From the NCBI GenBank assembly GCA_029339505.1, contig JAQISU010000026.1:731501-795500 (forward strand): a stretch of 64,000 bases of DNA, given 5' to 3'. Position 1 is the first letter of the stretch, and every line of letters begins with the position of its first letter. The position numbers were made by a program, and so were the translations under genes. This DNA is from Unio delphinus (lineage: Eukaryota; Mollusca; Bivalvia; Unionida; Unionidae). The notes beneath the pieces were generated by a model. It was not told the DNA's origin. It did not search any database and saw only the letters and a list, made by a program, of their open reading frames with translations. Below are positions 46,063 to 61,560 of this stretch, in pieces.

Positions 46063-46341
46063 AGCAGCAGAGAGGGTGAACAGACCACGTTTTCAAGCAA
46101 AAATAAGGCTTCCAGATCATGTTTTCGAACAAAATATGGCCTATAGATAACGTTTTCGAACAAAATATCAGGTTTCCAACAAATCTCATTTAACCCAAAA
46201 AAAATCTCCATTTTTGCAAAAACGGAGATTTTACGATTTTTTAATCAATTTTGCTCGCAACGATGTGGTCATCCACCCTCTCTGCTGCTACAAGTTAACA
46301 AAAAATAATAAATGATTTTAACCGAATATTTGATCCAGTCC
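46063..46341. repeat. left terminal inverted repeat (279 bp)
   Basis: It pairs with 61,264-61,555. By eye the outer 227 bp (46,063-46,289) is identical to the right end, and the inner part differs by a short indel. It contains three direct repeats starting GTTTTCGAACAAAATAT (46,089, 46,121, 46,152; the first is a variant) and a 28-bp near-palindrome at 46,203-46,230 (AATCTCC...GGAGATT). It also has an inverted copy of its own first 16 bases at 46,274-46,289. Its inner edge contains a copy of the last codons of the packaging ATPase gene from the other end. Confidence 0.93.
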
Positions 46342-46357
46342 TTAGGACGAAAATCAT

Positions 46358-47749
46358 TTATGATTTCACAAACAGACTAATCGCTAACACCTCTTCTTGT
46401 AAATCAATCAGATTATTTGACTGGTCGGTGAGTTTGAAATTAATTCTGGTTAATGAATTATTATGGCATTGCATGTAGACAGGATTAATTGGGTTTTCAA
46501 TAATTAGGAATCCTGGAGGAGCTGTTGGTGCAAACGAATAAAGAATATATATTTGCTGAGCTTGATTTGATCGTTTGAGATTAATTTGATAGCTTCCTTC
46601 GATAACATCACATACTAAATTAAGCGCAATCACTGAGGATATATTCACGTTGAATGGAGCGATATGCCTACCACCACCATCTGGATCATTATTATGTTTG
46701 AGGATAGTTGTTTGTTGTTCTATTAATTTCTTCCATGCGTCATGGATTTTTTGGAAACCTTCATCGATGGCATCATTGAGAAGTTTTTTTAGTTCCGGTA
46801 CGTTATATCCCGGTAGTTTGAATGTGTGGATATCTTTGACGGGGATTTTATATTGTTTTACAAATTCTGTTATCGATAGGGGATTATAGTCATCTAATAT
46901 ATCCTGAATAATTTTTAGGTTAAATGTTTCCATATCGTCGATAATTTTATTGCATGTTTCTACGACGCTGATAAATTCATCTCGGGTGAGAGAGCCGGAT
47001 TTAAGAGATATTAACAACAGCGATAAATCATTATTCATTGCTGTGAAATTTTCAATGATTTTAGGTTCGTTAACAAAATTATATCCCTCTATTCTATCCC
47101 CTAGCCTCTCTTCTCTGGTTGATCGGTATCTGAGATCAAAAAAATCTAAAGTGTTTTCGTGATATTTATAACTCCTTATTGGATTATTGGGTTTTATTCT
47201 GTCGGTGATATAATCAGATTTTTGTGGTTCTGGTACATCAACGGTTTCTCCCCCTGGTGGTAATTCAGGCCATCCTAGTATGGTTCTAATAGAACTCTGA
47301 TAGATATCTACGACGTATCCTTCTGTGCTTATTTCAATTGCGGATGATAGCGTCGGCTCATGAACTGTTATAGCTATTTTCGATTCTGTTCCAGTAATCG
47401 ATTTTATTCTACGCGCGAATTCATTATTGATTTGTTCGATTTGGTATGACCCTGTTGGTATTGAAACGACGTTCCAGTCTGGAGTCCCGTCTTCTTTATT
47501 CTTATTCGCGAAAACCAAGGAATTATTCGGTTGTTGACCACCAAATGATTTTGATCTGATATTAGGCCAACTGTGATACATTCGTAGTTTTGCTAGCGCT
47601 ATCTCCTTCACGGGGACTGGGCTAGGGAAATTCACACTAAACTCGGGTTCCGTTGATGTTATTGATATCATACTTGTTTGTACTGGGTTCGTGTTCTCCA
47701 CTACTCGTTGAAGTAATTCCATCGGTGTCGTCATTGTTATTATACTCAT
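46358..47749 (-). CDS. penton-like / minor capsid structural protein
   Basis: 463 residues. I see no enzymatic motif. The N-terminal third has FSVNFPSPVPVKEIALAKLR and an IPTGSYQIEQINNEF segment; the C-terminus has PGFLIIENPINPVYMQ and NNSLTRINFKLTDQSNNLID. From memory these two blocks mark a structural protein found in many invertebrate Polinton-like and adinto-like elements, where it accompanies the major capsid protein and is taken as a single-jelly-roll penton. That role is an inference. The N-terminus is affected by a 151-bp tandem duplication: the preceding copy (47,637-47,900) carries a second, out-of-frame version of the same start region. ATG at 47,749 gives the longest frame. The gene ends 17 bp from the left terminal repeat. 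Confidence 0.65.
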   Translation of the reverse strand: MSIITMTTPMELLQRVVENTNPVQTSMISITSTEPEFSVNFPSPVPVKEIALAKLRMYHSWPNIRSKSFGGQQPNNSLVFANKNKEDGTPDWNVVSIPTGSYQIEQINNEFARRIKSITGTESKIAITVHEPTLSSAIEISTEGYVVDIYQSSIRTILGWPELPPGGETVDVPEPQKSDYITDRIKPNNPIRSYKYHENTLDFFDLRYRSTREERLGDRIEGYNFVNEPKIIENFTAMNNDLSLLLISLKSGSLTRDEFISVVETCNKIIDDMETFNLKIIQDILDDYNPLSITEFVKQYKIPVKDIHTFKLPGYNVPELKKLLNDAIDEGFQKIHDAWKKLIEQQTTILKHNNDPDGGGRHIAPFNVNISSVIALNLVCDVIEGSYQINLKRSNQAQQIYILYSFAPTAPPGFLIIENPINPVYMQCHNNSLTRINFKLTDQSNNLIDLQEEVLAISLFVKS

Positions 47750-47930
47750 GTTGTCGCTCTAATTTTGACACCGCGGAATCATAAATACTGACCATCACTG
47801 AGAACTCACAATTTGGTATGGTTGAGGTTATTGAGATCATTCTGGTTTTCGGGTTCGTGTTTTCTAATTCCATCGGTGTTGTCATTGTTATTATATTCAT
47901 GTTGTCGCTCTAATTTCGATATCGCGGAAT
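47637..47930 (-). repeat. 151-bp tandem duplication at a gene junction
   Basis: The block ending CATGTTGTCGCTCTAATTT occurs at 47,747 and again at 47,898, an offset of 151 bp. It carries both the last codons of the upstream membrane-protein gene (LERQHEYNNND) and the first codons of the penton-like gene (MTTPMEL), read in different frames. Because 151 is not a multiple of three, only one copy is in frame with each gene. Confidence 0.85.
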
Positions 47931-48351
47931 CAAAAATACTGACCATCGCTGAGAATTCACTATCTGATATAATTGTATTATCGAGTGACGACGATATCAT
48001 CAATGATAATTGCGAGTATGCGGTTGATGCAATATGAAATTGAAGTAAGTAATTCTGCAGTTTACTCTGGCTGCATGATGATATCTTTTTTGCTATCCCG
48101 GTTGATATACCCCCGACTGTAGCCACCGCAGAAATGCAAATTGGAACTACGACCGGGGCAATCATTGTAACCGATGCAAGTATTATTCCGGCGCCAGCGA
48201 GAACGCTTGACACCGAGTACATAGTAATATCAATTGCGGTGATTCTTCGTCGGTATTTTTTTATTTTTATTTGATACTCCTCAGTGAGGGTTTTGAGTCT
48301 ATTTTGAAATTCTCTGACCTGATCATAGCGACATTGCGTTGATGAAAACAT
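47806..48351 (-). CDS. two-helix membrane protein of the virus element
   Basis: 181 residues. Residues 1-43 are basic and likely coiled (EFQNRLKTLTEEYQIKIKKY). Two hydrophobic segments follow at about 44-64 and 66-84, with glycine and small residues and a short hairpin between them. An amphipathic region and a hydrophilic Asn/Asp-rich tail complete it. Proteins of this layout occur beside the capsid genes in other Polinton-like elements; a role in an inner membrane or entry is inferred only. The tail lies in the 151-bp tandem duplication shared with the penton-like gene, so the C-terminus may be altered. ATG at 48,351 is the only reasonable start. Confidence 0.6.
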   Translation of the reverse strand: MFSSTQCRYDQVREFQNRLKTLTEEYQIKIKKYRRRITAIDITMYSVSSVLAGAGIILASVTMIAPVVVPICISAVATVGGISTGIAKKISSCSQSKLQNYLLQFHIASTAYSQLSLMISSSLDNTIISDSEFSAMVSIFDSAISKLERQHEYNNNDNTDGIRKHEPENQNDLNNLNHTKL

Positions 48352-48410
48352 TTTTATTTTAAAAAAGCTAGCGTTTTCAATTGTGAAATCCGAACGATTT
48401 TCCTTTCAAT

Positions 48411-49688
48411 TTAGTTATTTACTTCGCATACGAATTCTAAGCACCAGGATATTTTTAATCTACCGGTGTTATCAACCGCAATAATCTCAAATTCTTCTTC
48501 AACTCCGATAATTACTGTCGCGGTGCCACCAAAGTAGGTTTTACCGCTTACGATGATATCAAATTGCTTGTCAGAGATTAACGTCATCCTGTAGATACCA
48601 TGAGGCCACTTCTCGATATTGACCTTCAATTTAGCATTAGATTCTTTTACCCAATCAAAGGTCCCATGCTTTACCCTTTCAGAGGTTTCTTTTAGTTTAA
48701 AAATATCGTCGTAAACGTCGAGATAGGTTTTTTTGATTTCAGCGAGAGTCGGGCCTGTCAACGATGTGGTTTCAGATTCATCACGTGTTCTCCCCAAAAA
48801 TCTATCCACGATGGTATTAAGTGTTGTTTGTCTCACCATAAACCTAATAATATCGTTGAGAGTCATCGTAGATGTAGCGGGGACACCAAAGAAATTATTA
48901 GCGACGTAGGCATTGTGAGTATGCCTGATAATAAACTCGCTGATTTCAGCGAGAGTCGAGTCTGCCACAGGTGGGGATCCAAAAAACCTAACAATGACGT
49001 CGTTAGTGGGTTTTTGTACCCGCTCAACATTTTCTATTATTTTAGAAATATCATTGTAAATATCGAGATAATTTGCCTTGATTTCATTTTCATTCATCAT
49101 CCTTCCCGCGTCCTTGTTAAAAAAGAATAGCGATAGATAGTTTTTGATTTCAGCGAGAGTCATGCCAACCAGAAGCGGGGTTCCAAAGAATTTATGTACG
49201 ACATTTTTGCGAAAAACTGAAAACTGTTTTCCGTGTTCTTCAATTTTAGATTGAAGTGTTGCTAGTTCTAACAGAGAATTATCCAACTCATTGTCATGGG
49301 TAGCAATCTTATCAGTGATCGTAGACACAAGTGCACCTGGTTTAAGTCGTCCGTCGCTGGAATACAACGCAATAGAGTTTTCAGTGGCGTCTTGCTGCCG
49401 TTTTAAAATGTCATCCGCGGATATATTACTGGCTTTAAGTCGTCCGTCGTTGGAATACAGCGCAATAGAGTTTTCAGCGGCGTCGCGCTGCCGTATCAAA
49501 ATGTCATTCAATGACACATCACTGGATTTCAATTTACCCTGTTTGTCCTGAAATACAACTATTTCGTTCGGGTCAACATTTACTAAATTTAACGTCTCAG
49601 CGATTTCATCTTTGATTAGTTTTTTTACATCACCGGTTGCAGTGCCATCGGGTTTGGGTTTCAAAGATCTCCCCCAAATATCAATCAT
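48411..49688 (-). CDS. fibre-like repeat protein (candidate attachment protein)
   Basis: 425 residues without a known enzyme motif. Residues 43-118 hold three copies of a roughly 31-residue repeat (SIALYSNDGRLKASNISADD and variants); the DNA repeat is visible at 49,330-49,540. Residues 140-165 look coiled-coil. Residues 166-320 hold four looser repeats of FFG-P followed about ten residues later by TLAEI (about 167, 234, 266 and 300). The last 80 residues are rich in beta-type sequence (GKTYFGGTATVIIGVEEEFE). This stalk-plus-head design suggests a trimeric fibre, but that is inference from architecture and position. The start at 49,688 lies just downstream of a CGATTTTAGA motif shared with two other gene starts. 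Confidence 0.5.
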   Translation of the reverse strand: MIDIWGRSLKPKPDGTATGDVKKLIKDEIAETLNLVNVDPNEIVVFQDKQGKLKSSDVSLNDILIRQRDAAENSIALYSNDGRLKASNISADDILKRQQDATENSIALYSSDGRLKPGALVSTITDKIATHDNELDNSLLELATLQSKIEEHGKQFSVFRKNVVHKFFGTPLLVGMTLAEIKNYLSLFFFNKDAGRMMNENEIKANYLDIYNDISKIIENVERVQKPTNDVIVRFFGSPPVADSTLAEISEFIIRHTHNAYVANNFFGVPATSTMTLNDIIRFMVRQTTLNTIVDRFLGRTRDESETTSLTGPTLAEIKKTYLDVYDDIFKLKETSERVKHGTFDWVKESNAKLKVNIEKWPHGIYRMTLISDKQFDIIVSGKTYFGGTATVIIGVEEEFEIIAVDNTGRLKISWCLEFVCEVNN

Positions 49689-49712
49689 GTTATTGTAAAA
49701 CTCTTTCTCTCT

Positions 49713-50168
49713 CTAAAATCGTTTTTGACGACTTCGTTGAAAAATCTTCGATTTTCTCCAGCGATTACTAGTGTATTCATTCACGACAACATGTGGTGGT
49801 TTTCTGCTTGGGTTACTCAAGGAGTTAGAAATAGCGTCAAGGACATTTAATACTTCGCTGCCACATATTGGTGGGTCATTCATTTGTTGTGTTGGTAGCG
49901 TAGAATACCAAGTCTTCATTGGAAGGGTTTTTATATAACGCATAAACTCTTTTGGTGGGGCTAATCCATATGAATCGAAATAAACAATCCCACGTGGATC
50001 AATAGCGTATGCAACCCAGTGAGTTCCAGGTCCGGTGCTGTTATCTAAATTAATGATTCCGGTTTCAACGCTGTTTGGTTGATGTGGTAATTGATCTTTC
50101 ATAAAGACACCTCTGAAGTTTTTAATCGCTAGTTTTTTAGCAGCATCCATTAAATCAAAATTGGACAT
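49713..50168 (-). CDS. adenain-type maturation cysteine protease
   Basis: 151 residues from the ATG at 50,168 (MSNFDLMDAAKKL). It shows the adenovirus-protease signature in order: GTHWVAYA with catalytic His50, YFDSYG with the acidic residue Asp65, Gln94/95 for the oxyanion hole, and PPICGSEVL with nucleophile Cys102. The family cleaves structural precursors during particle maturation, and this enzyme is standard in adenoviruses, Polintons and virophages. An upstream ATG at 50,279 would add 37 residues, but these are merely the other frame of the 45-bp repeats belonging to the neighbouring gene, so I reject it. At about 150 residues it is short against adenovirus protease (about 204) yet usual for this type of element. 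Confidence 0.85.
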   Translation of the reverse strand: MSNFDLMDAAKKLAIKNFRGVFMKDQLPHQPNSVETGIINLDNSTGPGTHWVAYAIDPRGIVYFDSYGLAPPKEFMRYIKTLPMKTWYSTLPTQQMNDPPICGSEVLNVLDAISNSLSNPSRKPPHVVVNEYTSNRWRKSKIFQRSRQKRF

Positions 50169-50188
50169 AGGAATCTTCGATTCCTGAA

Positions 50189-50473
50189 TTAATAAATCGT
50201 TCCTGGTAGTCTTAGACCCTTTCCGCTGTACCACGAATACGGGGTTCCTGGTAGTCTTAGACCCTTTCCGCTGTACCACGAATACGGGGTTCCTGGTAGT
50301 CTTAGACCCTTTCCCTTTTTTTTATATCCTTTCCCAGTTGCTTTCTTTAGTGCCATTCCTGCTGCAGTACCAACGGCTCCTAACGCTGCCGCTTTAGCCA
50401 CCGCTGGGGCTGCTGCTGCAATCAATGCTGGAATCGCAGCTAACAACGGAAATATACCGCCTGTTTTAATCAT
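50189..50473 (-). CDS. hydrophobic/basic core peptide (pX-like)
   Basis: 94 residues. A GGIFPLLAAIPALIAAAAPA hydrophobic stretch (residues 5-30) is followed by a small-residue helix and a basic segment (GKGYKKKGKGLRLPG). The C-terminus holds three units of a 15-residue repeat (GKGLRLPGTPYSWYS), visible as 45-bp DNA repeats at about 50,199-50,325. Peptides of this type, hydrophobic then strongly basic, recall adenovirus pX and occur next to the capsid gene in related elements. The LPGTPxxxY motif also occurs at the start of the PLA2 protein at 60.4 kb. Its ATG overlaps the TGA of the upstream small gene (ATGA). Confidence 0.55.
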   Translation of the reverse strand: MIKTGGIFPLLAAIPALIAAAAPAVAKAAALGAVGTAAGMALKKATGKGYKKKGKGLRLPGTPYSWYSGKGLRLPGTPYSWYSGKGLRLPGTIY

Positions 50474-50697
50474 ATTTTTGATAGCAGCCGCAGAGAGAGT
50501 AATCTGAACACCCTTTTTGCTACTAGTGCATTATTGAAATGTTTCACCTGACGAGTTGTCAGCGATAGTTTATTTGCACCACCAGTCATTTGATTGGGTT
50601 TCAACGTGATTGTGGTTCCGCATTTTTTAGCTGATTCCGATTGCAATTTTTTTAATTGACCGGGAGTTAACGCAACACTAATAACACTATATGACAT
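50470..50697 (-). CDS. small conserved structural-region protein, possible frame break
   Basis: About 75 residues from ATG 50,697 (MSYSVISVALTPGQLKKLQS). It consists of short LT-x-x-Q-type repeats (VALTPGQLKKL, LKPNQM, LSLTTRQVKHF), which I recall from small proteins next to the capsid gene in related elements. There this unit often continues directly into the GG-hydrophobic segment that here starts the next gene. After VAK, at an A5G3 run near 50,515, the continuation in the minus-one frame looks more like the family than the present frame, which ends in a leucine-rich tail. A one-base deletion, an assembly error or programmed slippage are all possible. The longer upstream ATG at 50,748 overlaps the capsid gene and is unlikely. 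Confidence 0.5.
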   Translation of the reverse strand: MSYSVISVALTPGQLKKLQSESAKKCGTTITLKPNQMTGGANKLSLTTRQVKHFNNALVAKRVFRLLSLRLLSKI

Positions 50698-50715
50698 TAT
50701 ACATAATTGATTGAT

Positions 50716-50727
50716 TCTAAATCGTTT
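50716..50727 (-). promoter_or_regulatory. shared start-proximal motif AAACGATTTAGA (site 2)
   Basis: On the minus strand AAACGATTTAGA lies 19-30 nt before the ATG at 50,697. Near-identical motifs lie at similar distances before the major capsid gene (CGCGATTTAGA, 52,155-52,165) and the fibre-like gene (AAAAACGATTTTAGA, 49,712-49,725). Confidence 0.45.
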
Positions 50728-52135
50728 ACATGTTTTCCACTGGTGCATCTACCACTCTCATTCTTCCACCAACACCTTCAAGTAGCATTGATTTATCACT
50801 GAGAATGACAGCAACCGCTCTATAATCAGAAATAGCACCACGAGTCACATTAGCTCTAAAATGTATATCAACAACAGATTGTCTCATCAAATCGAGATGT
50901 TCCAGTGAGAAGTAATAGATTGGATACAGATTTTTAAAATCATATTGTGATATTTGCAAACCAGTATCCACATTTTGATCGCGTGCCATAAATGACAACA
51001 GACGATGATAAACTCGTGCAATATGATTTTCTGTGTAATTAAGTTGTATATCCTCGGATGGTTCCTGTTGGCCGTTTATTCTCAGTGAGACGTCTTTCAC
51101 ACCTAATTGATCAAATATCATATGAGTGAAACGTTGATCGCCAACTCGTGCGTTATCTTGTAACGCAATAAATACATGACGTGGCGCAGAAACGCCTTGT
51201 TTTGATGCTAGGTTCCAAGTGAATAACCCGTTGATATTTGATTGTTTAACATCTGTACTCACGGTTAGCCAACTTAGTAATGATTTTCCTCCTTGGTCCA
51301 TAAATGATAGTAATCGTCCTTCTGCGGTGATTGCTGGAGTCAACACTGGCATCCACAATGATATTTTTGTTAAATTGACTTTACCAGCATCAGCATTGGG
51401 ATTTGCAGCATCTGCTGGAATCCTCCAGATTGCGTCGTTATCATCACTTTTTCGTACAAGCGATACTGTATGCTTCGCCCCGTAGATAACTTTTCGGACG
51501 TTTCTACAGAATCCAAATATGTGATGCAGTGGAATCGCGCATAAAAATGATTTACGCGCTCCTTGCAACATTGAGTTTCGTGTTGCAGCTCCTAGATTGA
51601 AATTAGCATCGTTGTTTATAATCATATTCTCGACATCAGCATCACTATTATCACGTTTTTTTGGTCGTCTTACAACAAATGGATTTCCTCCAGCGGTATT
51701 CTTACCATCTTTTGCAAACATCATAGAGGGTCCTGCTGATCTTGTATAATCATCAGAATATCTCGCTAACCCGATTATTGTTGTAGCCACATCAACATCG
51801 CGATCTATCGACTCAATTTCTTTTCCATCAATGAGATATCTAGCACTCTCAAATAGCGCCATAATACCATTATTGACAAAACCGACTTGAGTACCATCTG
51901 GATACGGTGCTGGTACAGCAGTAGTATCAGCAGCTGTTACAAGTTCTCCTTCTACTTCAATAAACGCTTCACAGGGCAAAAAGTATTTACTGGTATCATG
52001 GACTTGAAGTTCAATTCTTGCTCGACTATTTGGGTCTATTGCATGATAGGCGTAATATTGATAATCGCGTACAGAATCATCCTTGCCAACTGGGGCATCT
52101 ATATCAAACGCTGGATCAGGTGACTGTTTGAACAT
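50726..52135 (-). CDS. major capsid protein, double-jelly-roll type (inferred fold)
   Basis: 469 residues. The N-terminus reads DSVRDYQYYAYHAIDPNSRA, then RIELQVHDTSKYFLPCEAFI and EVEGELV, followed by GFVNNGIMALFESARYLIDG and KEIESID. From memory this succession, with an early strand pair, a PCEAFIEVEG element and a VNNGIMALFE helix, matches the capsid protein of invertebrate Polinton-like and adinto-like elements. Length is in the expected range (about 450-650). Position and order beside protease, pVI-like and core genes support it. No internal stop or frameshift is seen, so this gene is intact. The start at 52,135 is the first in-frame ATG and lies about 20 nt after the shared CGATTTAGA motif. 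The fold is inferred; structure prediction would settle it. Confidence 0.75.
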   Translation of the reverse strand: MFKQSPDPAFDIDAPVGKDDSVRDYQYYAYHAIDPNSRARIELQVHDTSKYFLPCEAFIEVEGELVTAADTTAVPAPYPDGTQVGFVNNGIMALFESARYLIDGKEIESIDRDVDVATTIIGLARYSDDYTRSAGPSMMFAKDGKNTAGGNPFVVRRPKKRDNSDADVENMIINNDANFNLGAATRNSMLQGARKSFLCAIPLHHIFGFCRNVRKVIYGAKHTVSLVRKSDDNDAIWRIPADAANPNADAGKVNLTKISLWMPVLTPAITAEGRLLSFMDQGGKSLLSWLTVSTDVKQSNINGLFTWNLASKQGVSAPRHVFIALQDNARVGDQRFTHMIFDQLGVKDVSLRINGQQEPSEDIQLNYTENHIARVYHRLLSFMARDQNVDTGLQISQYDFKNLYPIYYFSLEHLDLMRQSVVDIHFRANVTRGAISDYRAVAVILSDKSMLLEGVGGRMRVVDAPVENM

Positions 52136-52154
52136 TTTATTCTATTTATCAGAG

Positions 52155-52165
52155 TCTAAATCGCG
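52155..52165 (-). promoter_or_regulatory. shared start-proximal motif CGCGATTTAGA (site 1)
   Basis: It lies 20-30 nt upstream of the major capsid protein ATG. It is one of three near-identical motifs placed at similar distances before structural genes (see 50,716 and 49,712) and is therefore a candidate late-promoter or initiator element. Confidence 0.45.
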
Positions 52166-52176
52166 ATTTTCCATTT

Positions 52177-52614
52177 TCATCGTCGTAGTTTTTTAAAGCC
52201 ACTTCCTGCTATCATATTTGCAATATTGCTTTGGTCGGGGGTTAAAGCCATCGACGCTAATTTTTCGTCTACTGCGTTATTTATAATTCTACTAACACTT
52301 GCAGGCATTTCCGCTGTAGATGGCAATGGTACCGGTTTCTTTTTTCGTCTCACTAATGATGTTATTTTATTCTTCGCAGTTGAAAACGCTTTTCCAGCAA
52401 AATCTCCAACAGCACTAATACCCTTATCACGAATAACATCAATTGCTTTCATTCCTAATTGTTTAGCCAACGGCATCACTTTTGGAGCCATTCTCGCAAA
52501 TAACCCTAAAATGGTATTGCCTAAACCATCTCCGTAGTATGCTCTATAAACCGGAAACCGTGAATTAACTACGTAGACGGGGGTTGGTTTATCATGATTG
52601 TAGTGTATGATCAT
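52177..52614 (-). CDS. pVI-like minor capsid protein (candidate)
   Basis: 145 residues. A YYGDGLGNTILGLFARMAPK segment (about residues 26-45) is followed by a PLAKQLGMKAIDVIRDKG helix, an AVGDFAGKAFSTAKNKIT segment and the basic RRKKK cluster. A C-terminal helix and a GSGFKKLRR tail end it. The G-x-G-[IL]-G...F....P....K......D pattern is one I recall from small proteins next to the capsid gene in related elements, compared by others to adenovirus pVI/pX. Membrane-active or DNA-bridging roles would be inference. The 33 bp around and upstream of its ATG are identical to those of the next gene upstream (53,524). Confidence 0.5.
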   Translation of the reverse strand: MIIHYNHDKPTPVYVVNSRFPVYRAYYGDGLGNTILGLFARMAPKVMPLAKQLGMKAIDVIRDKGISAVGDFAGKAFSTAKNKITSLVRRKKKPVPLPSTAEMPASVSRIINNAVDEKLASMALTPDQSNIANMIAGSGFKKLRR

Positions 52615-52644
52615 TATTTGAAATCAGAAACAATTTTTCAATTG
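52612..52644 (-). promoter_or_regulatory. 33-bp leader block shared by two genes (copy 1)
   Basis: The 33 bases 52,612-52,644 (plus strand CATTATTTGAAATCAGAAAC then AATTTTTCAATTG) are identical to 53,522-53,554. In both places the first three bases are the ATG of a minus-strand gene, so the block is a common 5' leader or promoter. Confidence 0.7.
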
Positions 52645-52699
52645 ACTTTTCAATTCAGTCACTATGATACCCACTTTCCACTAACTCGCCAATGAAATC

Positions 52700-53524
52700 T
52701 CAATATGTGCTGATATCCATGATACCACCCTGAAATAATCGTCTACAGATATCAGCTGCTTCATTAATTATTTCCGGTGAGTTATTTCCGGCTCGGAACC
52801 CTCCTACAAGAACCTCTAATCGTGATATATCACTGAGAACACTACCAGGACATGAAACGCTAGCGTTTCCAACTAGACCACTCCCCAGAAATTTCTTCTC
52901 ATCGTATGGCTGTCTTATTTGGAGTTGAAATTTTCTCTTGAAGTCTCTGTATTCCTTCATCCTTCTGTCTAAAATCCCAGTATTTATTTCATACACTATA
53001 TCAGCCCATTCATTATGTGACATTCTATAATTCGAATAATTGTCCGTGAAAAACTTCTCTTGTGAATCATAGCTGTTAGCAGCGAATTCACCTAAATTGT
53101 CTATATCCTCGTTGAGAATTTGTTGTTTAGCGCTCTCGGTAAATATAATTGATTTAGGTAGTCCACTAACTAGTTCTTCCTGAAATCCTTTAAATTTTCG
53201 TTCTGAAGCAGTTGATATATCCTGAGGAAAAGATTGCAAGGATTTTTTTGTTTGTTTAGTTCTTTTTGCTATTTTTTCTAACACAGGAATAAGACCCTCT
53301 TCTTTTCTTTTACCGTCAGGATCATCTCCCAGTATAGCACGCTCTATCTCCTTCGTTGCTGTGGTTACTGGTTTAAACAATTCTTCAGATCCCGCAGCAA
53401 AATCAGTCTGAAGACTCTGTCGTTGTTGTAGTTTATTCCGTACAGAGTCACGAATTGGTACAAATCTCCTGATTGCATCCAGTCGTTCACGAGCCAATCG
53501 GGTTGTTAATGCTTCATTGACCAT
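52700..53524 (-). CDS. conserved-type protein of unknown function (274 aa)
   Basis: 274 residues, largely helical and charged: RLARERLDAIRRFVPIRDSV at the start, KKSLQSFPQDISTASE in the middle and a C-terminal part with KKFLGSGL, RLEVLVGGFRAGNNSPEIIN and a closing CRRLFQGGIMD. The C-terminal GSGL...RLxxLxxGxxAGNNSxExxNE pattern is one I recall in uncharacterised proteins of related elements, located just upstream of the pVI-like gene. There is no catalytic motif. A core or scaffold role is possible but not shown. It shares its 33-bp leader with the following gene, so the two are probably expressed together. Confidence 0.55.
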   Translation of the reverse strand: MVNEALTTRLARERLDAIRRFVPIRDSVRNKLQQRQSLQTDFAAGSEELFKPVTTATKEIERAILGDDPDGKRKEEGLIPVLEKIAKRTKQTKKSLQSFPQDISTASERKFKGFQEELVSGLPKSIIFTESAKQQILNEDIDNLGEFAANSYDSQEKFFTDNYSNYRMSHNEWADIVYEINTGILDRRMKEYRDFKRKFQLQIRQPYDEKKFLGSGLVGNASVSCPGSVLSDISRLEVLVGGFRAGNNSPEIINEAADICRRLFQGGIMDISTY

Positions 53525-53554
53525 TATTTGAAATCAGAAACAATTTTTCAATTG
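53522..53554 (-). promoter_or_regulatory. 33-bp leader block shared by two genes (copy 2)
   Basis: It is identical to 52,612-52,644 and covers the ATG and leader of the 274-residue protein gene. The core CAATTTTTCAAT is repeated once more 15 bp further upstream (about 53,560-53,571). Confidence 0.7.
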
Positions 53555-53614
53555 CAAAACAATTTTTCAATCCGACCTAACACCATCGTGGAAGTGTTAA
53601 GGGCGTTATCATTG

Positions 53615-53669
53615 ATGAAGGAAGTGTGGAAATTGTATATAAAAATAAATAATACCACACTTCCTTCAT
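53615..53669. repeat. 15-bp perfect hairpin
   Basis: The arms ATGAAGGAAGTGTGG and CCACACTTCCTTCAT are separated by 25 nt of AT-rich sequence. Confidence 0.9.
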
Positions 53670-53789
53670 TCTATTTTGATCAATCTGAACCGTCCATCAA
53701 TTTTTATTCAGTGTGAAATATTTTCACTGTTTTTGACATTATCAATCAAAAAATGCTAAAAAAAATTAAAATCTCTATGAGGGACGGTC

Positions 53790-53862
53790 ACAATCAAATA
53801 ATGATAAATAGTCGGTCAATCAAATAATGATAAATGGACGGTCACAATCAAATAATGATAAA
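53790..53862. repeat. three iteron-like direct repeats
   Basis: CAATCAAATAATGATAAAT occurs three times with 26-27 bp spacing, each preceded by a GGTCA-type base pattern (GGTCACAATC or GGTCAATC). Confidence 0.9.
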
Positions 53863-53869
53863 TGGTCAA

Positions 53870-54271
53870 TCAAAATTGTTCATTTTCTTGAATTAACGCC
53901 CGTAGGTTTCTGACTTTAGAATTAATCTCCTTTTTCAATTCGTATTCGTACCCCAATTCTTTTCGTATTCGTTCTACGATGGTATACAATGGAGCGAACA
54001 CACTTACGTCACTGGAAAATGCGAGAGAGTCCTTAATAGAATTCTGAATTCTTTTGATGAGCGCATACTTCTTTGGTAGCATATACTTGTTAGTGCTAAC
54101 TCCGTATTCAATATCCTGAAAATCAGACATGATTTGATCAGGATTTAACCCATCTGATAGTTCAATATCCCAACTTTTCAATTTTGAAATCTCGGATAAA
54201 ATGCTATTCATGTTTTCAGAATTCATTATTCTATAATAATGATATATTTCTAAATGAAAAATATGACGCAT
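53870..54271 (-). CDS. unknown small protein (133 aa)
   Basis: Not recognised. The likely protein starts at the internal ATG at 54,226 (MNSENMNSILSEISKLKSWD), since the first 15 residues of the longer frame are hydrophobic/aromatic and overlap the upstream gene. It is mainly helical and charged, with SDFQDIEYGVSTNKYMLPKK and a C-terminal KKEINSKVRNLRALIQENEQ helix. The ATG at 54,271 would overlap the TAA of the nuclease gene by one base. Confidence 0.5.
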   Translation of the reverse strand: MRHIFHLEIYHYYRIMNSENMNSILSEISKLKSWDIELSDGLNPDQIMSDFQDIEYGVSTNKYMLPKKYALIKRIQNSIKDSLAFSSDVSVFAPLYTIVERIRKELGYEYELKKEINSKVRNLRALIQENEQF

Positions 54272-54765
54272 TAGACGTAACTAAATCGAATTTTCTGTCC
54301 AGTCCCCTTTGAAATAGCCGATCGATAAACCTCCTCTGCAACTTTTCGTACTGAGGCTCTACAAATATCGAAATACTTGCCGGCTTCATATAATGATTGA
54401 AATATTTTTTCTTCGTTAGTTGTTGTATTCAAAGATTTTACTGGTCTCGCTTTTTTTGAACAAGTGCCAGTCTTTCCTCGTTTGGTATTCTCACTTTGTG
54501 TGATAGCCTGCAGATTTGATAAAGAATTGTTTTTCGGATTAGAATTGATATGATCAATAACAAAATCATCCTCGATCAATCCATAAAAACATTCAAATAC
54601 GAAACGATGATTGAGATAAGTTTTCTTTCCCTTAACAGTGAACACCAAGTACCCTTGATTATTCACAGAACCAACTGGTTTCTTCAGTCTGCGGTTTCTT
54701 ACAACACCATCACTGGATGCTTCATAATTTGTGATCACAGGGTGTTGTCTGAATTCTTGGTTCAT
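54271..54765 (-). CDS. HNH endonuclease with NUMOD-type domains (homing-type)
   Basis: 164 residues. The N-terminus (YEASSDGVVRNRRLKKPVGS) resembles a NUMOD4 DNA-binding motif. Next comes KKTYLNHRFVFECFYG and the HNH core VIDHINSNPKNNSLSNLQAI (Asp71-His72, Asn80, Asn84), then the SENTKRG ending typical of these enzymes. The C-terminal part (FQSLYEAGKYFDICRASVRK) resembles the NUMOD1 helix-turn-helix. Such free-standing nucleases are common in phages and large DNA viruses and usually act as selfish homing enzymes. It is not a standard gene of this element class, so it is probably a cargo insertion between the zinc protein and the 133-residue protein. Confidence 0.85.
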   Translation of the reverse strand: MNQEFRQHPVITNYEASSDGVVRNRRLKKPVGSVNNQGYLVFTVKGKKTYLNHRFVFECFYGLIEDDFVIDHINSNPKNNSLSNLQAITQSENTKRGKTGTCSKKARPVKSLNTTTNEEKIFQSLYEAGKYFDICRASVRKVAEEVYRSAISKGTGQKIRFSYV

Positions 54766-54779
54766 TCGTATACATAATA

Positions 54780-55202
54780 CTATTGTTTGTCTAATTCATC
54801 GTTTGGTTTAATGATAAATCTTTCGATGTAGTCTTGAGGAGTTCTTATGATTTTATCCTTGATACTGACTTTGTCAGTGTCAAGGATACTGACTTTATCA
54901 GTGTCAGCGTCAGGGACTTTGTCAGCGTCAGGGTCAAAATTTCTGATTGATTGTCCATTTTTTATTCTTTTATCATAATAACGCTTCAACTCCCTGTATC
55001 GCTTACCACCGCAATTTAGACACAACTGAGATTTTCCCCTGACCCCAACTCCACATAGAATACAAGGTAACGGACCAAGGCTTCCACGACGATAGCTTTG
55101 CATATGATACCCACAGAACTCATTTCTGCATGATTTGTTACATGGGTTTATTGATCCAATCATAAGCCACTTGCAGTGATTCATTATATAAAAATCTTTC
55201 AT
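54780..55202 (-). CDS. zinc-binding protein with two Cys clusters
   Basis: 140 residues from ATG 55,202; the ATG at 55,184 (MNHCKWLMIGS) is an alternative and more family-like start. Cluster one is Cys10, Cys21, Cys25, Cys30 and His33 (CKWLMIGSINPCNKSCRNEF). Cluster two is Cys47-Cys50 and Cys61-Cys64 (CILCGVGVRGKSQLCLNCGG). Both look like zinc ribbons or knuckles. A basic stretch follows, then an acidic repeat (DTDKVSILDTDKVS) visible in the DNA at 54,855-54,930. Its role is unknown; the setting, divergent from the replication gene, suggests a regulatory protein. Start codons of the two divergent genes lie within about 25-45 bp. Confidence 0.6.
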   Translation of the reverse strand: MKDFYIMNHCKWLMIGSINPCNKSCRNEFCGYHMQSYRRGSLGPLPCILCGVGVRGKSQLCLNCGGKRYRELKRYYDKRIKNGQSIRNFDPDADKVPDADTDKVSILDTDKVSIKDKIIRTPQDYIERFIIKPNDELDKQ

Positions 55203-55226
55203 TTAAATGCTTGTTTTAATTATAGC

Positions 55227-58200
55227 ATGAGGGAATTAAGGAGAACGCCTTCGAAAAATGCTGATAAGGAGTTTAAGAGATTATTCAAAATCAATCCTAG
55301 ATTTAATCTCGATAGACCCAAAAAACGTCCAATAGACGGAAACATGAAAGAGTTTAAGAGATTATTAAAAATCAATCCTAGATTTAATCTCGATAGACCC
55401 AAAAAACGTCCAATAGACGGAAATATGAAAGAGTTTAAGAGATTATTAAAAATCAATCCTAGATTTAATCTCGATAAACCCAAAAAACGTCCAAGAGACG
55501 GAAATATGAAAGAGTTTAAGAGATTATTGAAAATCAATCCTAAATTTAATATCGATAGACCCAAAAAACGTAACAAGAGATTATTGAAAATCAATCCTAG
55601 ATTTAATCTCGATAAACCCAAAAAACGTCCAAGAGACGGAAATATGAAAGAGTTTAAGAGATTATTGAAAATCAATCCTAAATTTAATCTCGATAAACCA
55701 AAAAAAACGTCCAAGAGATTACCCTGGAAAGATGCTCAATTCAATCTCGATATAGTTTCTAATACACCAAAGAATACAATTCTTGATAAAGCCATGATTA
55801 GTAAAATCAGAGACTGTTTTAATGAATTCAAGCGTGATGGAGCATCTTATTGTTGGTCAACATTTCGAATTGATGGTGTTGTTGATGCTACCATGAGTGA
55901 TGAAAAAGCAGCAGTGATAATTTCACGTGTTGGGGAAAAACGGCATTTTTTCCGAATCAAATTCATTATCGAAGTCGATGGTAAATGGATTATTAGGGAT
56001 AAATTTGAACCAATCCTCAAGAATAAAAAAGCTGTCATTGTGAGTAGAGATTCCAAACCAGGAATTCTAACCGGAATCGATAAGCCATACTACGAAAGAT
56101 CTTATCCCGTAACAGCAATGGTTTATGGGATATATCCGTTAAATGATAAACCCGATATCGCAAAACTAGCTCCTATGAAATATTCTAGTTCACTGAATTG
56201 TGTAGCAGAACGAATAATAGAACACTTCACAAATGCGTCCCGGGGGAATGAACTAACTGATCTAAGACGAAAAAAAATAACCGAGTGGGAATTAACGGTA
56301 AAACAGCACGGTGCAAAGATTTCTGATATAGCTAAATTAGAAGCATCATTAAAATTCCCAATATCAGTAACAACAATAACCGGAGAAGTATTATACGAAC
56401 CGAAATATCAATCGCGAGGAGCCCCAATACAGATTATTGATCATAACAAACACGCGTGGACACCTGCGGTAACAATATTTCCACGAGAACGAACCGTGAG
56501 ATATATCCCCAAGGAGTTCGTCGGGGATGTTTTCTATGAAGAGAGATTATTTGATGCTATTCATGCGTTGTGTAAGGATGATCCTGTGTCAGTGTGGCTA
56601 CTTAGAAGTGATGAAGAATTCGATCAATTTGTAAAACCAAATGGTGAATTATATCGCATTGAAGAATTAGATAACAGAATGAGAAAAATCGCTAGTGATT
56701 TTTCACCGGAGAATTCCCATGAAAAACTACTCACGGATAGTTTTACTATTCCATCAGTGGTAGCTCACTTCGCAAGAGAAAAAAACTCATGGCGTCCAAC
56801 ACGAAGTGATTTTCTTGAGGATGTTAAATTGAGTTGCGTCGAATTCGGTCATAGAGGACTGTGGAATACGAAATACTCACGTGATGGTATGATTTCAATT
56901 GATATATCCGCGTGTTATCCCGGAAGTTTTCTCGGATATGGGGAATGTGCTGAGTACTTCAAACGATTTGGACACCCCACGCATGAAATGACTCGTGTTG
57001 CGATTAATGGACCATTGCCTGATTTTGATTTAACCGGATTCGCTCGTGTGATATCATTCGAATTAGCTACAGGGTTACATCCGTGTAGTTATGTTTGGCT
57101 CGGTAGACACCTATCTGAAAAACACTGGATGCCAATAGTGCTATTGAGATATATGATTGATTGTGGTATGCTAATATCGTTGATTGTTTCCGAGGCTATT
57201 ATATGCTATCGAGCTCAGAAAGAAGTTTGGCTACCACAACCCGATCTAGATAGAATAATCAACGAACTACGAAAACAGTTTCCAGATTTCAGTGAAGAAG
57301 AAATCATGAATCGGTCTAAGAAGTTATTTGAAATTAAAAAAGAACAAGCAAAAGATCTCGGAAGAAGAATAATCGGTAAATTTACCCAGGGTGGACGATA
57401 CGACAACGCAAAATACTCTTCGCGGTTGATCATAGATGTCGCTGAATACGATTTTATTGTAGCAGATTTAATCAAACAGGGAAAACTTGTATCCCGTAAG
57501 GATGCTTTTCTATCCAATGGTGAGAAATTAGGTACGGTTGTTACCTACTGTGATGGATATAATTCCCAGTACACACATTTGAGAAGTTCAATGCTAGCCT
57601 ATGCTTCTATTAATCTATTTTCGATGATAAATAGATTTCCTAATACCGCGGTTAGAGTGGCCACTGATTCGATGTATATACACAATAAGTACAAATCAGC
57701 TGTAGCGGCATTCACAGATCCCGAAGAAAATTGGGGGCGTTGGCGATTTAAAAAGGAGATGCTACATGAGTATTGTGAATCCGCAGACGTTGCCATGGAT
57801 GATAAATATCTTTGTTGTAACCGTATTGAAATTCAATCAGAACTTTCTAATGCACCACCGGTATCTGATCCAATATGTAGATATAAGACAGTTTATTTAA
57901 ACGGTTGTGGTGGGTCAGGAAAGACAACTCGTGCAATTGAATTATTTTGTCGGTCAACCATGATTGTGCTAACACCGACTCACAGACTCGCCAGAGAGAT
58001 GATACAGCGAGGGGTAAATGCCTGTACTTATCACAGTGTTTTTCGATGGAAAGGTGACAAATGGACTCCTGAGCGTATGGGTGATAAATTCATTCCTGAA
58101 ATCATAATTTGGGATGAAATATGCACAGTGTCATTAGATGTATTACAAACATTTCTCGAGTGGTTGTTAAACAAAAACACAAAAGTCGTCATGTGCGGGG

Positions 58201-58772
58201 ATCACGGCCAACCACCACCATTTGTCGGTGCATCTCCACATGAATGGCTAAAGGGTTTTGTAGACTACTATGAAGAAATCACCACTGATTATAGATCACT
58301 TGATGAACGATTACGAGAATTTAAGAAACTAATTAGATTACAACCGGATAGAATCCAATGCGAAATAGCGCGTGAAGTGATTTCAGAAACTCCAATGAAT
58401 GATTTCTGGGAAACATGGAGACCAAATGATTTGATAATTGCAAGTAGAAAAATAGTCAGGGACACACTTCAAATGAAGTTATTTGAATTGCATAAAGAAC
58501 AATTTGCAACGCTTCCAGTACCCCTTTGTTATAGGCCATCGGATACACGAAAACAGAATATTGAAGTTGATATTCCAGGACAGAGTGAAAAACAAATTCT
58601 CGTATTAAATGATATTGTGCTGGTTGATATCAATGTCGTTGAAGATGCATTGCGTGCTAATAAATCCCCATGGACGCTAGGATACGCAGCAACAATACAC
58701 TCTTCACATGGATTGACTATATCAAATACAATTGTTTGGATGGTGGAAATCACATCGAATGGTCGAATTTAG
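55227..58772 (+). CDS. polymerase-B-like / SF1 helicase fusion protein
   Basis: About 1181 residues from ATG 55,227; ATG 55,176 would add 17 residues over the divergent gene. Residues about 10-165 are six or seven tandem basic repeats of 27 residues (KEFKRLLKINPRFNLD plus PKKRP). The central part has a polymerase-B motif A, SIDISACYPGSF (Asp559). Motif C appears as VRVATDSMY (812-815), with Ala in place of the first catalytic Asp, and the usual K-x6-NSxYG motif B is absent (GKFTQGGRYDN in its place). The domain therefore looks inactive. The SF1 helicase follows: Walker A NGCGGSGKT (893-900), Walker B IIIWDE (963-964), motif III GDHGQ (991-995) and motif V TIHSSHGLT (about 1155). It resembles the inactivated-polymerase/SF1-helicase fusion described for Polinton-like viruses, Tlr1 elements and transpovirons. 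The frame breaks just before helicase motif VI. Confidence 0.85.
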   Translation: MRELRRTPSKNADKEFKRLFKINPRFNLDRPKKRPIDGNMKEFKRLLKINPRFNLDRPKKRPIDGNMKEFKRLLKINPRFNLDKPKKRPRDGNMKEFKRLLKINPKFNIDRPKKRNKRLLKINPRFNLDKPKKRPRDGNMKEFKRLLKINPKFNLDKPKKTSKRLPWKDAQFNLDIVSNTPKNTILDKAMISKIRDCFNEFKRDGASYCWSTFRIDGVVDATMSDEKAAVIISRVGEKRHFFRIKFIIEVDGKWIIRDKFEPILKNKKAVIVSRDSKPGILTGIDKPYYERSYPVTAMVYGIYPLNDKPDIAKLAPMKYSSSLNCVAERIIEHFTNASRGNELTDLRRKKITEWELTVKQHGAKISDIAKLEASLKFPISVTTITGEVLYEPKYQSRGAPIQIIDHNKHAWTPAVTIFPRERTVRYIPKEFVGDVFYEERLFDAIHALCKDDPVSVWLLRSDEEFDQFVKPNGELYRIEELDNRMRKIASDFSPENSHEKLLTDSFTIPSVVAHFAREKNSWRPTRSDFLEDVKLSCVEFGHRGLWNTKYSRDGMISIDISACYPGSFLGYGECAEYFKRFGHPTHEMTRVAINGPLPDFDLTGFARVISFELATGLHPCSYVWLGRHLSEKHWMPIVLLRYMIDCGMLISLIVSEAIICYRAQKEVWLPQPDLDRIINELRKQFPDFSEEEIMNRSKKLFEIKKEQAKDLGRRIIGKFTQGGRYDNAKYSSRLIIDVAEYDFIVADLIKQGKLVSRKDAFLSNGEKLGTVVTYCDGYNSQYTHLRSSMLAYASINLFSMINRFPNTAVRVATDSMYIHNKYKSAVAAFTDPEENWGRWRFKKEMLHEYCESADVAMDDKYLCCNRIEIQSELSNAPPVSDPICRYKTVYLNGCGGSGKTTRAIELFCRSTMIVLTPTHRLAREMIQRGVNACTYHSVFRWKGDKWTPERMGDKFIPEIIIWDEICTVSLDVLQTFLEWLLNKNTKVVMCGDHGQPPPFVGASPHEWLKGFVDYYEEITTDYRSLDERLREFKKLIRLQPDRIQCEIAREVISETPMNDFWETWRPNDLIIASRKIVRDTLQMKLFELHKEQFATLPVPLCYRPSDTRKQNIEVDIPGQSEKQILVLNDIVLVDINVVEDALRANKSPWTLGYAATIHSSHGLTISNTIVWMVEITSNGRI
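55270..55720 (+). repeat. 81-bp in-frame repeats in the fusion gene
   Basis: Units beginning GAGTTTAAGAGATTATTAAA start near 55,270, 55,351, 55,432, 55,513 and 55,657; a shortened one lies at about 55,575. All are multiples of three and keep the frame. Neighbouring units are nearly identical in DNA, which suggests recent expansion. Confidence 0.92.
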
Positions 58773-59149
58773 TCTATCTCGCAGTATCCAGAGTACGAAA
58801 CATAAATCAACTTCGAAGAGTTGTCCTCGATGATGAAATCATTGGTGATGATAATGACACAACAATAAGTGATATTGATGTTAGCATCATTAATAAAAAA
58901 ATCTCCGGTTACAAACAACAGGACAAAAAAAAACAACGAGAATTTGATATTGATGCTAAATTAATAATTACACTGAAGAAACAACAGAATAATCACTGCG
59001 CGAGTTGCAATTGTATAATGCATTGGCAGTATTCGGATAAGGATCCTCGCCAATTCACCGTAGACAGAAAAAATAACAATCTCGGTCATGTCAAAAATAA
59101 TGTGATGTTGACTTGTCTTGAGTGCAATAGACGCAACGGTGCTAGTTAA
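58736..59149 (+). pseudogene. frame-broken 3' part of the fusion: helicase motif VI plus HNH domain
   Basis: In the frame minus one relative to the upstream ORF the strand reads IEWSNLVYLAVSRVRNINQL, the motif VI (Y-x-AxSRVR) that must follow motif V in an SF1 helicase. A charged linker (SGYKQQDKKKQREFDIDAKL) comes next, then an HNH/endonuclease VII-like domain: CASCNC, FTVDRKNNNLGHVKNNVMLT and CLECNRRNG. It clearly belongs to the gene starting at 55,227. One base is missing, or two are extra, somewhere between about 58,735 and 58,765. As read here the protein would lose motif VI and the whole nuclease. The fragment also has an ATG at 58,670 in its own frame, which is probably fortuitous. Confidence 0.8.
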
Positions 59150-59492
59150 GACCATGCGGTGGCAATTGAGTATCCTCGGGAATCACTTGTAGTTGTTGTC
59201 GAGTAATACCCCGCTGAGGGGCAGTTGAATCCAGTTTATAGACTGGAGGTCTACCAGTTGATCGTGTTATACTAGATATCTTATGCGTAGTGACGCTCCA
59301 AATAGGATCAGTAGCCCTTTTTCTACCCCCTTCAAGCTCTCCTGGTTCGTATAAGTACCTCACAATGACATTACTACCAAGAATTGGTTCTTTGAAATCT
59401 TTTTGTGGTTGTACGGGTATTGACTTCTTTTTAATCGCGTTGATAGGTTTCATGTTGATTGTTCTAGTAATCTCGTTATTCAGTGCAGTAAT
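59142..59492 (-). pseudogene. integrase C-terminal part, separated by an in-frame stop
   Basis: It continues in the same frame as the integrase core after a TAA at 59,508-59,510. It starts at about ITALNNEITRTINMKP and contains GSNVIVRYLYEPGELEGGRK followed by RATDPIWS, the beta-barrel-type C-terminal domain characteristic of Polinton/adintovirus integrases. The last bases overlap the end of the convergent nuclease fragment. Because the frame is unchanged, a single nonsense change separates it from the core. Confidence 0.75.
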
Positions 59493-59507
59493 CACAGATG
59501 GTAATCT

Positions 59508-60086
59508 TTAAACCCATTCACGGGATCGCTTTTCTTGAATGAATTCTTTTGCGTATTGATATCCAAATAACCGCTCAGCAATCGTCCGATTAAATCGTTC
59601 TACAATGGCCTGATCGCGATGTAGCGCAGTATGCCCTCGTCGTATGGTGACATTATGATGTTTCATTGTAGATAACACTGCACCCTGAAATTCCTTGCCA
59701 GGATCAACCTGCAATAGATTTGGCCAGTGCAGAGGACCTCGTCGATAAATCCTTTCAAATGCAGAAGCGACTTCAGTGGCTGATTTTGTTTTTAACGGTT
59801 CTGCTTCTTTGTATCGACTTGCAATATCAACTACGGTTAAAGCGTATTTGTAACCACGATCATGTGGCAGAAATAATATATCAGCCTGATGAACTTCATT
59901 AGGAGCGGTCACATCAAAATGCGAGAATTGAATTTGTTTAGGCGGTGGTAGATAAATTTGCCATAGTGCCTGTTTGGATAACCAATTAGCTGCAGTGGTT
60001 TTTTTCACTTTTGCAGCGCTAGCGAGTTTATGGACTGCTGATTTACCCCTCCAGTATCCTCTTGGGGAATAATAAATTGATTCCAT
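59508..60086 (-). pseudogene. retroviral-type (DDE) integrase core, truncated by a stop
   Basis: ATG 60,086 (MESIYYSPRGYWRGKSAVHK) is preferred over 60,104, which overlaps the PLA2 gene. Core motifs, numbered in the longer 198-residue frame, are NEVHQADILFLPHDRGYKYA (Asp75), NLLQVDPGKEF (Asp134) and DQAIVERFNRTI (Glu169): a D-D-34-E catalytic triad of the rve family. This enzyme joins the element ends to host DNA with a short target duplication, as seen at this locus. The frame hits TAA at 59,510-59,508 directly after SREWV, although homologous sequence continues in frame beyond it. The catalytic core is complete but the C-terminal domain would be missing. Confidence 0.88.
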
Positions 60087-60090
60087 ATTA

Positions 60091-60426
60091 TTAATTACCA
60101 GCACCTAACATCAATTTGCTTTTCATAGCCGATTTTATTAAAAATGAAGCCAATTTTTCTTTGAAGGATTTATCAGGAATAGCATTTAACGCATAAATTA
60201 ATTTCACATCCGCGAGATGTCTGTGTTGCAGATTGCTGCTTTTATAAGCAACATCATGAAGGTGACAGGCCTTATCAATGGCGTTTATTGGTTCTTCACC
60301 GGGTCGGGACTGATTTTGATCATTGAGTCTGATATCAAGTCTGGTTCCCGGTCCACAGTAGCTATATCCTGGAAGGTGCTTTTCTCCGGGGTACTTTGCC
60401 CATGGGGTTCCAGGGAGCTTTGCCAA
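60091..60426 (-). CDS. phospholipase A2 domain protein (parvovirus VP1 type)
   Basis: The open frame, counted from a TTG at 60,426, gives 111 residues and extends upstream to 60,459 without an ATG. It has the calcium loop YSYCGPGTRL, then INAIDKACHLHDVAYKS with the catalytic His57-Asp58 pair. This is the PLA2 type of parvovirus VP1, also found in adintoviruses and Polinton-like viruses, where it opens membranes during entry. The N-terminus carries LPGTPWAKYPG. No ATG exists in frame upstream; the likely start lies in the end of the zinc-ribbon gene, one frame away, across an A8 run (60,451-60,458), so a one-base indel or slippage is suspected. Confidence 0.8.
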   Translation of the reverse strand: MAKLPGTPWAKYPGEKHLPGYSYCGPGTRLDIRLNDQNQSRPGEEPINAIDKACHLHDVAYKSSNLQHRHLADVKLIYALNAIPDKSFKEKLASFLIKSAMKSKLMLGAGN

Positions 60427-60439
60427 TTTGGCTGCGATA

Positions 60440-60607
60440 TCACCTCCTCGTTTTTTTTAAATCAGATCTCATCGACACAAATCTAAATTTCTTTGTACCA
60501 CATTGCACGCATTTACCAGAAAGCGCTGATCGGTTATTTCTGGTTGTAATCGTTGTCACGTCATCTGTGCCAGTACGCGTTTTACACTTCACACAATATA
60601 GATCCAT
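60440..60607 (-). CDS. DUF5679-type zinc-ribbon protein (55 aa)
   Basis: A 55-residue gene, too short for common ORF cut-offs. ATG at 60,607: MDLYCVKCKTRTGT, then NNRSALSGKCVQCGTKKFRF. The two CxxC pairs (Cys5-Cys8 and Cys33-Cys36) with the xNxRxAxxGxCxxCGTKxFR signature match the DUF5679 family, small zinc ribbons frequent in adintoviruses, Polinton-like viruses and virophages. Function is unknown; presumably regulatory or nucleic-acid binding. It is divergent from the packaging ATPase with only 5 bp between the two start codons. Confidence 0.85.
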   Translation of the reverse strand: MDLYCVKCKTRTGTDDVTTITTRNNRSALSGKCVQCGTKKFRFVSMRSDLKKTRR

Positions 60608-60612
60608 AATTT

Positions 60613-61287
60613 ATGTATAGCGATATGGATATAATTGATTTTTCAGCGACTAAAACAAGAGAACCAGTTAAGCATCATGCAGCGCTACCAAACTCTATCC
60701 GGATGATTATAATCGGGCCATCTGGATCCGGTAAAACGCAATTGTTACTCAATTTAATAATGAGATGGATGAAGTGGGATAAGTTGTATTTAATTGCCCC
60801 TAGCGTAGATGATCAACGATGTTATGAAGTGCTAAAAGATTTTAACGACAGCGCGGTAGAAAAATCCGGAGAGGGTATTATTGAGTTTATAACCGATATC
60901 GATGAAGCACCGAGCATTGATGATATTGATGGAGATATTAACAATTTAGTCGTATACGACGATATAATGTTGGATAAACAAAAAAATCCTGCTAGAATAT
61001 TTTCCCGTGGGCGTCACAAAAACACTGACGTGATATATGTCACTCAACGCTACACTCAGATTCCAAAAGTGATCAGAGATAACTGCAATATTCTTGCTGT
61101 ATTCAACGGAGTTGATACTCATACTCTTAGAAATATTTGGCAGACATGGTGCTGCGGTGATATGGATCATAATCAATTTAAAAACTTCTTTAGTCATGCT
61201 CAGTCAAAACCAAACGGATTCGCAACAATAAATTTGCATGATCCTCGGACACCATATCGTATCGGACTGGATCAAATATTCGGTTAA
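60613..61287 (+). CDS. FtsK/HerA (A32-type) genome-packaging ATPase
   Basis: 224 residues from ATG 60,613. The Walker A motif is IGPSGSGKT (residues 35-42), the Walker B motif NNLVVYDDIM (Asp116-Asp117), followed by FSRGRHKNTDVIYVTQRYTQ, whose Gln is the sensor typical of the family, and PKVIRDNCN. This is the packaging ATPase of double-jelly-roll viruses, pumping DNA into preformed capsids. Length fits the 200-260 usual for Polinton-like elements. The last eight codons lie within the right terminal inverted repeat, so a copy of this 3' end exists at the left end (46,320-46,341). The gene is intact. Confidence 0.9.
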   Translation: MYSDMDIIDFSATKTREPVKHHAALPNSIRMIIIGPSGSGKTQLLLNLIMRWMKWDKLYLIAPSVDDQRCYEVLKDFNDSAVEKSGEGIIEFITDIDEAPSIDDIDGDINNLVVYDDIMLDKQKNPARIFSRGRHKNTDVIYVTQRYTQIPKVIRDNCNILAVFNGVDTHTLRNIWQTWCCGDMDHNQFKNFFSHAQSKPNGFATINLHDPRTPYRIGLDQIFG

Positions 61288-61555
61288 AATCATTTATTAT
61301 TTTTTGTTAACCCAGAACTGAAAACTTTAGCAGCAGAGAGGGTGGATGACCACATCGTTGCGAGCAAAATTGATTAAAAAATCGTAAAATCTCCGTTTTT
61401 GCAAAAATGGAGATTTTTTTTGGGTTAAATGAGATTTGTTGGAAACCTGATATTTTGTTCGAAAACGTTATCTATAGGCCATATTTTGTTCGAAAACATG
61501 ATCTGGAAGCCTTATTTTTGCTTGAAAACGTGGTCTGTTCACCCTCTCTGCTGCT
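61264..61555. repeat. right terminal inverted repeat (292 bp)
   Basis: Inverted partner of 46,063-46,341. The outer 227 bp (61,329-61,555) appear identical to the left end. The inner part carries an extra roughly 13 bp. The near-palindrome AATCTCCGTTTTTGCAAAAA then TGGAGATT lies at 61,388-61,415, and the inner inverted copy of the terminal 16 bases at 61,329-61,344. Confidence 0.93.
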
Positions 61556-61560
61556 CCATC
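61555..61560. repeat. target-site duplication, right (TCCATC)
   Basis: It matches 46,057-46,062. Confidence 0.8.

Follow-up and report, generated by a model that had tools for sequence, protein, structure and literature searches.

The element and its ends

What kind of virus left the 15.5-kb element at positions 46063-61555 of a 64,000-nucleotide stretch of Unio delphinus DNA (contig JAQISU010000026.1; hereafter the window), and by which replicase was it copied? We conclude that it is very probably an endogenous virus of the Maverick/Polinton type, that its replicase combines a phi29-like palm with a superfamily 1 (SF1) helicase, that copying was likely protein-primed and that the present copy is likely defective. 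A first-pass annotation, made from the letters of the window, had proposed that an endogenous Polinton-like element is present here with its two ends, and the termini bear this out. The element begins with AGCAGCAG at the left and finishes with CTGCTGCT at the right, and its outer 228-bp arms (46063-46290 and 61328-61555) match each other in inverted orientation without a single difference. The left arm starts with AGCAGC and contains a 31-bp tandem array and a 32-bp near-palindrome. An inner 48-bp pair (46294-46341 and 61264-61311) is likewise perfectly inverted, and the spacer between outer and inner block is 13 nt longer in the right repeat than in the left. CCATC directly flanks the element on both sides (46058-46062 and 61556-61560); given the base composition, five bases at two fixed positions would agree by chance with a probability of about 0.0015. 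Terminal inverted repeats with a target duplication of 5-6 bp, a trait of Mavericks/Polintons, are thus present. The duplication had been put at 5-6 bp, of which the 5-bp CCATC stands, while the six-base TCCATC takes in the element's own final T. With repeats this perfect and a duplication this clean, the insertion may be young, or gene conversion may have acted.

On both sides of the element the 228-bp arm closes, within one base, with the inverted copy of its own first 16 bp. Exact copies of this arm-end 16-mer occur four times in the window, all at arm boundaries. Each terminal repeat is therefore bounded by inverted 16-mers (AGCAGCAGAGAGGGTG), and the 228-bp arm could be a small mobile unit itself.

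A polymerase palm and a helicase in one protein

The replicase ORF (open reading frame; 55227-58772, plus strand) comprises a repeat-rich N-terminus, a candidate priming region, a vOTU-type part, a palm of protein-primed PolB (pPolB) and SF1 helicase motifs I-V. Palm and helicase share this one ORF, so that the stand-alone pPolB without a fused helicase that is typical of Mavericks/Polintons was not found; the fusion had been predicted in its place, correctly. The predicted palm structure matches phi29 polymerase by Foldseek, with Asp559, Lys718 and Asp814 as catalytic residues. The motif A Asp, the motif B Lys and the second Asp of motif C are kept across 66 alignment rows, and the first motif C Asp is replaced, by Ala in 59 of the 66 rows and retained as Asp in none. 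The helicase is recognised as AAA_19/AAA_30 by Pfam and as a Pif1 fold by structure comparison of the model. Alignments to phi29 begin at residue 183 or later of the phi29 chain, which we take to be past the exonuclease domain, and the replicase before residue 491 was barely probed by them. The predicted vOTU-type residues Cys325 and His406 are kept where aligned.

From about 58.75 kb on, helicase motif VI and a C-terminal HNH-like domain lie in another frame (58670-59149, plus strand), and in the present copy motif VI is found only past this break; the relative P0008 is continuous here. The HNH of this separate frame stays below threshold in Pfam (14.4 bits versus a cut-off of 21.4), and its Cys pattern recurs in 44 of the 65 replicase homologues. 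Relatives carry the same palm-helicase fusion. Four of the 65 homologues are 62-71% identical to the window protein, and for 51 of the remaining 61 the identity is 36-45%. In a 59-row tree, obtained by a quick method with midpoint rooting and containing long branches elsewhere, the window protein and its four closest homologues cluster together (SH-aLRT 100); this cluster sits on a long branch and is separate from sequences of Elysia crispata and Glomeromycota. Near the N-terminus we also observed an array of 27-aa (81-bp) repeats (55269-55721), which by eye was seen in none of the other 21 rows of alignment A1.

Gene set and interrupted frames

Seventeen genes can be listed in the element, in line with the roughly 17 that had been announced. 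The replicase and the packaging ATPase are on the plus strand and the 15 others, including integrase, capsid, protease candidate and penton candidate, on the minus strand. Pfam matches to capsid, ATPase, integrase and PLA2 support the structural module, the rve integrase and the PLA2 gene of the first-pass annotation. A double jelly-roll (DJR) major capsid protein with a packaging ATPase, another Maverick/Polinton trait, is present by Pfam: the capsid gene (50726-52135) matches PF21738 (E 3.4e-16) and the A32-type genome-packaging ATPase (60613-61287) matches PF04665 (E 1.3e-12), and both frames are open in the present copy. The capsid has 147 homologues; among the best 120 of these the closest is 80% identical, and the named animals are Sinanodonta woodiana, Potamilus streckersoni and Hydra vulgaris.

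The penton candidate (46358-47749, 463 aa) has no Pfam match and 14 homologues, three of them named S. woodiana and one P. streckersoni; two of the 13 that were aligned are without a central part of about 200 residues. Its model is confident in the central helical part only, and for this reason penton remains a candidate name. In S. woodiana, P0206 holds the penton-candidate sequence inside a predicted 628-aa protein with a CABIT domain, which probably reflects a chimeric gene model or an insertion within an intron. Capsid and penton-candidate genes of freshwater mussels are now tied to one element that has the full set of genes and both termini.

The integrase is of the rve kind found in Mavericks/Polintons (PF00665, E 2.1e-9, 38.0 bits versus a cut-off of 32.6). 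An in-frame TAA separates its catalytic part (59508-60086, minus strand) from the C-terminal part (59142-59453, minus strand); for 59145-59504, where the gene is interrupted, no family was matched at E<=1 and no chromodomain was found. Since the frames of both replicase and integrase are interrupted, the present copy is likely defective and unable to spread by itself, and the earlier description as a complete virus genome does not hold with two key ORFs broken. The PLA2 domain (60094-60456, minus strand; PF08398, E 6.1e-12) has no ATG before its catalytic part. Its ORF lies in the -1 frame of that of a DUF5679 zinc-ribbon-like protein (60443-60610, minus strand; PF18930, E 3e-14), and the two overlap at 60443-60456, at a T TTA AAA / A-run site. 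No downstream structure supporting programmed slippage was found at this site; a programmed frameshift or an indel is possible.

The remaining genes are all on the minus strand: ORFs of 181 aa (47806-48351) and of 425 aa with internal repeats (48411-49688), an adenovirus-type cysteine protease candidate (49713-50168) with a C5/C48 match in Pfam (Peptidase_C5) that stays under the cut-off, a small Ala-rich ORF with 15-aa repeats (KGLRLPGTPYSWYSG; 50189-50473), a small basic ORF of 92 aa (50470-50748), ORFs of 145 aa (52177-52614), 274 aa (52700-53524) and 133 aa (53870-54271), a free-standing HNH_3/NUMOD1 homing-type endonuclease (54271-54765; PF13392, E 3.4e-13, NUMOD1 under the cut-off) and a Cys-rich ORF of 140 aa (54780-55202). 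The 15-aa repeats with LPGTPY (50199-50333) resemble an LPGTPW stretch that immediately precedes the PLA2 domain.

Weighing the explanations

The gene set suggests how such a virus may have worked. The rve integrase would have linked the AGCAGC.../...GCTGCT ends to target DNA cut with a stagger, giving the CCATC duplication. The N-terminal region of the replicase may act as terminal protein and prime synthesis at the repeats, and the predicted vOTU-like part may cleave it from the polymerase. The fused helicase would unwind double-stranded DNA in front of the palm, which apparently has no exonuclease domain. The A32-type ATPase would then pack the genome into the double jelly-roll capsid, and PLA2 could aid passage of the particle through a membrane at entry.

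Could the fusion be a mis-annotation, and the element a standard adintovirus or Maverick with a stand-alone protein-primed polymerase? The strand layout and the rve integrase, DJR capsid, PLA2 and DUF5679 genes would all be the same. However, the palm runs into the SF1 helicase within one ORF, relatives have the same fusion, and PF03175 gave no match in the replicase at E<=1 (Pfam), which makes this explanation highly improbable. The lost first Asp of motif C, never present in the 66 rows, would fit a catalytically dead polymerase part next to a helicase that works alone, the view of older literature. Yet the three other catalytic residues are kept throughout these rows, and the same motif C replacement is found in polymerases reported active (PMC11071308), and we consider a dead polymerase unlikely. 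The first-pass annotation had called the polymerase inactivated; as its catalytic residues are kept and a 2024 revision of the literature predicts activity, we do not uphold this label, and the element argues against it as a name for this class of polymerase-helicase replicases. Finally, the open capsid and ATPase frames beside an interrupted replicase and integrase might hint at a remnant that the host has domesticated and whose capsid or PLA2 genes it now uses, but identical repeats and a clean duplication suggest recent insertion or gene conversion, and we give this account very little credence.

Several results weigh against our preferred reading of an endogenous Maverick/Polinton-type virus with a phi29-like palm. 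At E<=1 in Pfam the replicase matched two AAA families and one chance family and no polymerase, and its profile searched against PDB gave 25 matches, all helicases or unrelated proteins, none a polymerase. Among the 33 Foldseek rows at E<=0.001, TM-scores of the phi29 rows were low (TMt at most 0.34), because a single domain of a long model was matched. The vOTU and priming regions were unrecognised by fold comparison, and the alignment rows cover mainly residues 593-854 and 878-1178. By sequence, the capsid matched no solved structure. The penton candidate had no confident match among solved structures either, and the asserted penton-like identity stays a candidate one. IMG/VR scans with capsid, integrase, PLA2 and replicase queries revealed no close relative, and scans with the replicase alignment revealed three distant loci, matched in the helicase part only. 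The lost frames, too, might be assembly errors.

Comparison with known systems

The closest description is that of the Tlr1-like (pPolB-S1H) replicases of polinton-like viruses and transpovirons, named after Tlr1 of Tetrahymena thermophila, which consist of an N-terminal region, vOTU, a palm without exonuclease, SF1 helicase and a C-terminal homing nuclease, and which have no first motif C Asp; Tlr1 also has an rve integrase (PMC11071308). The window replicase shares the PolB palm with motifs A, B and C, the C-terminal SF1 helicase in the same protein and the state of motif C, and its vOTU and HNH likeness is by residue pattern. It differs from Tlr1, which we compared by description alone, in its HNH-like domain where Tlr1 has GIY-YIG, in its animal-type host region (PMS2) and in the 27-aa N-terminal repeat array, which was seen in none of the 21 further rows of alignment A1.

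The rest of the element resembles vertebrate Mavericks, which measure 12.7-24.6 kb with repeats of 46-1447 bp (PMC8097293), ranges that include the window element and its repeats. The two-module layout is shared, with replicase and ATPase on one strand and integrase, capsid and protease on the other, and so is an end motif of a trinucleotide given twice, AGT there and AGC here. The available text on the vertebrate elements has a protein-primed polymerase gene and does not mention a helicase fusion, whereas the two are fused in the window. Adintoviruses share the rve integrase, the adenovirus-like protease (here a candidate) and OTU-like residues before the palm, and are defined by a capsid that BLASTp links reciprocally to reference hexons (PMC11071296); unlike them, the window element has a helicase fused to the palm and no chromodomain found in the integrase C-terminus. 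Polinton-like viruses (PLVs) sensu Yutin 2015 are defined by a PgVV-like capsid protein (PMC4642659). OmPLV of Oxyrrhis marina also has SF1 helicase and pPolB in one protein, but its helicase is N-terminal, the exonuclease domain is kept and a tyrosine recombinase stands in for rve (PMC12721341). Some cryptophyte PLVs have helicases that carry an HNH unit at the N-terminus and sit immediately upstream of the rve integrase (PMC12220804); helicase-HNH and integrase adjoin in the window as well, but face each other.

The element sets an unusual but already described replication module on a Maverick-type chassis in an animal-type chromosome. Mavericks as such are reported across the mollusc genomes of one study (PMC10294476), and the titles and abstract openings of the part of the literature covered hold no report of a pPolB-S1H element with both ends from a mollusc or other animal. 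The chances seem about even that animals, molluscs first, host a Maverick-type lineage in which a Tlr1-type polymerase-helicase-nuclease replaces the classical protein-primed polymerase, with this locus as an end-to-end provirus; if so, an animal virus chassis acquired a replication module known from protist viruses. A phi29-like palm in such a fusion protein, in an animal-type chromosome, makes the replicase question testable in public animal genomes.

Host locus

The element had been placed in a mismatch-repair gene region, and we indeed identified nine PMS2 stretches, 37-86% identical to human PMS2, that follow one another in gene order along the minus strand between 44062 and 16576 (seven of the nine at E<1e-6, two at about 0.015). 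They point to an animal host, and the relatives of the capsid and the penton candidate tentatively suggest a bivalve. The element starts 2 kb upstream of the first PMS2 exon found. No exons were detected in the window for PMS2 residues 1-53 or for the C-terminal portion, and the element is thus likely inside a PMS2 intron, although it may instead lie upstream of the gene. Within the same region, a tRNA-Leu call (40138-40210) falls inside a short frame at 40005-40235 that resembles a tRNA-derived SINE, and a minus-strand frame at 27572-27814 is presumably akin to the N-terminus of a pogo-type transposase.
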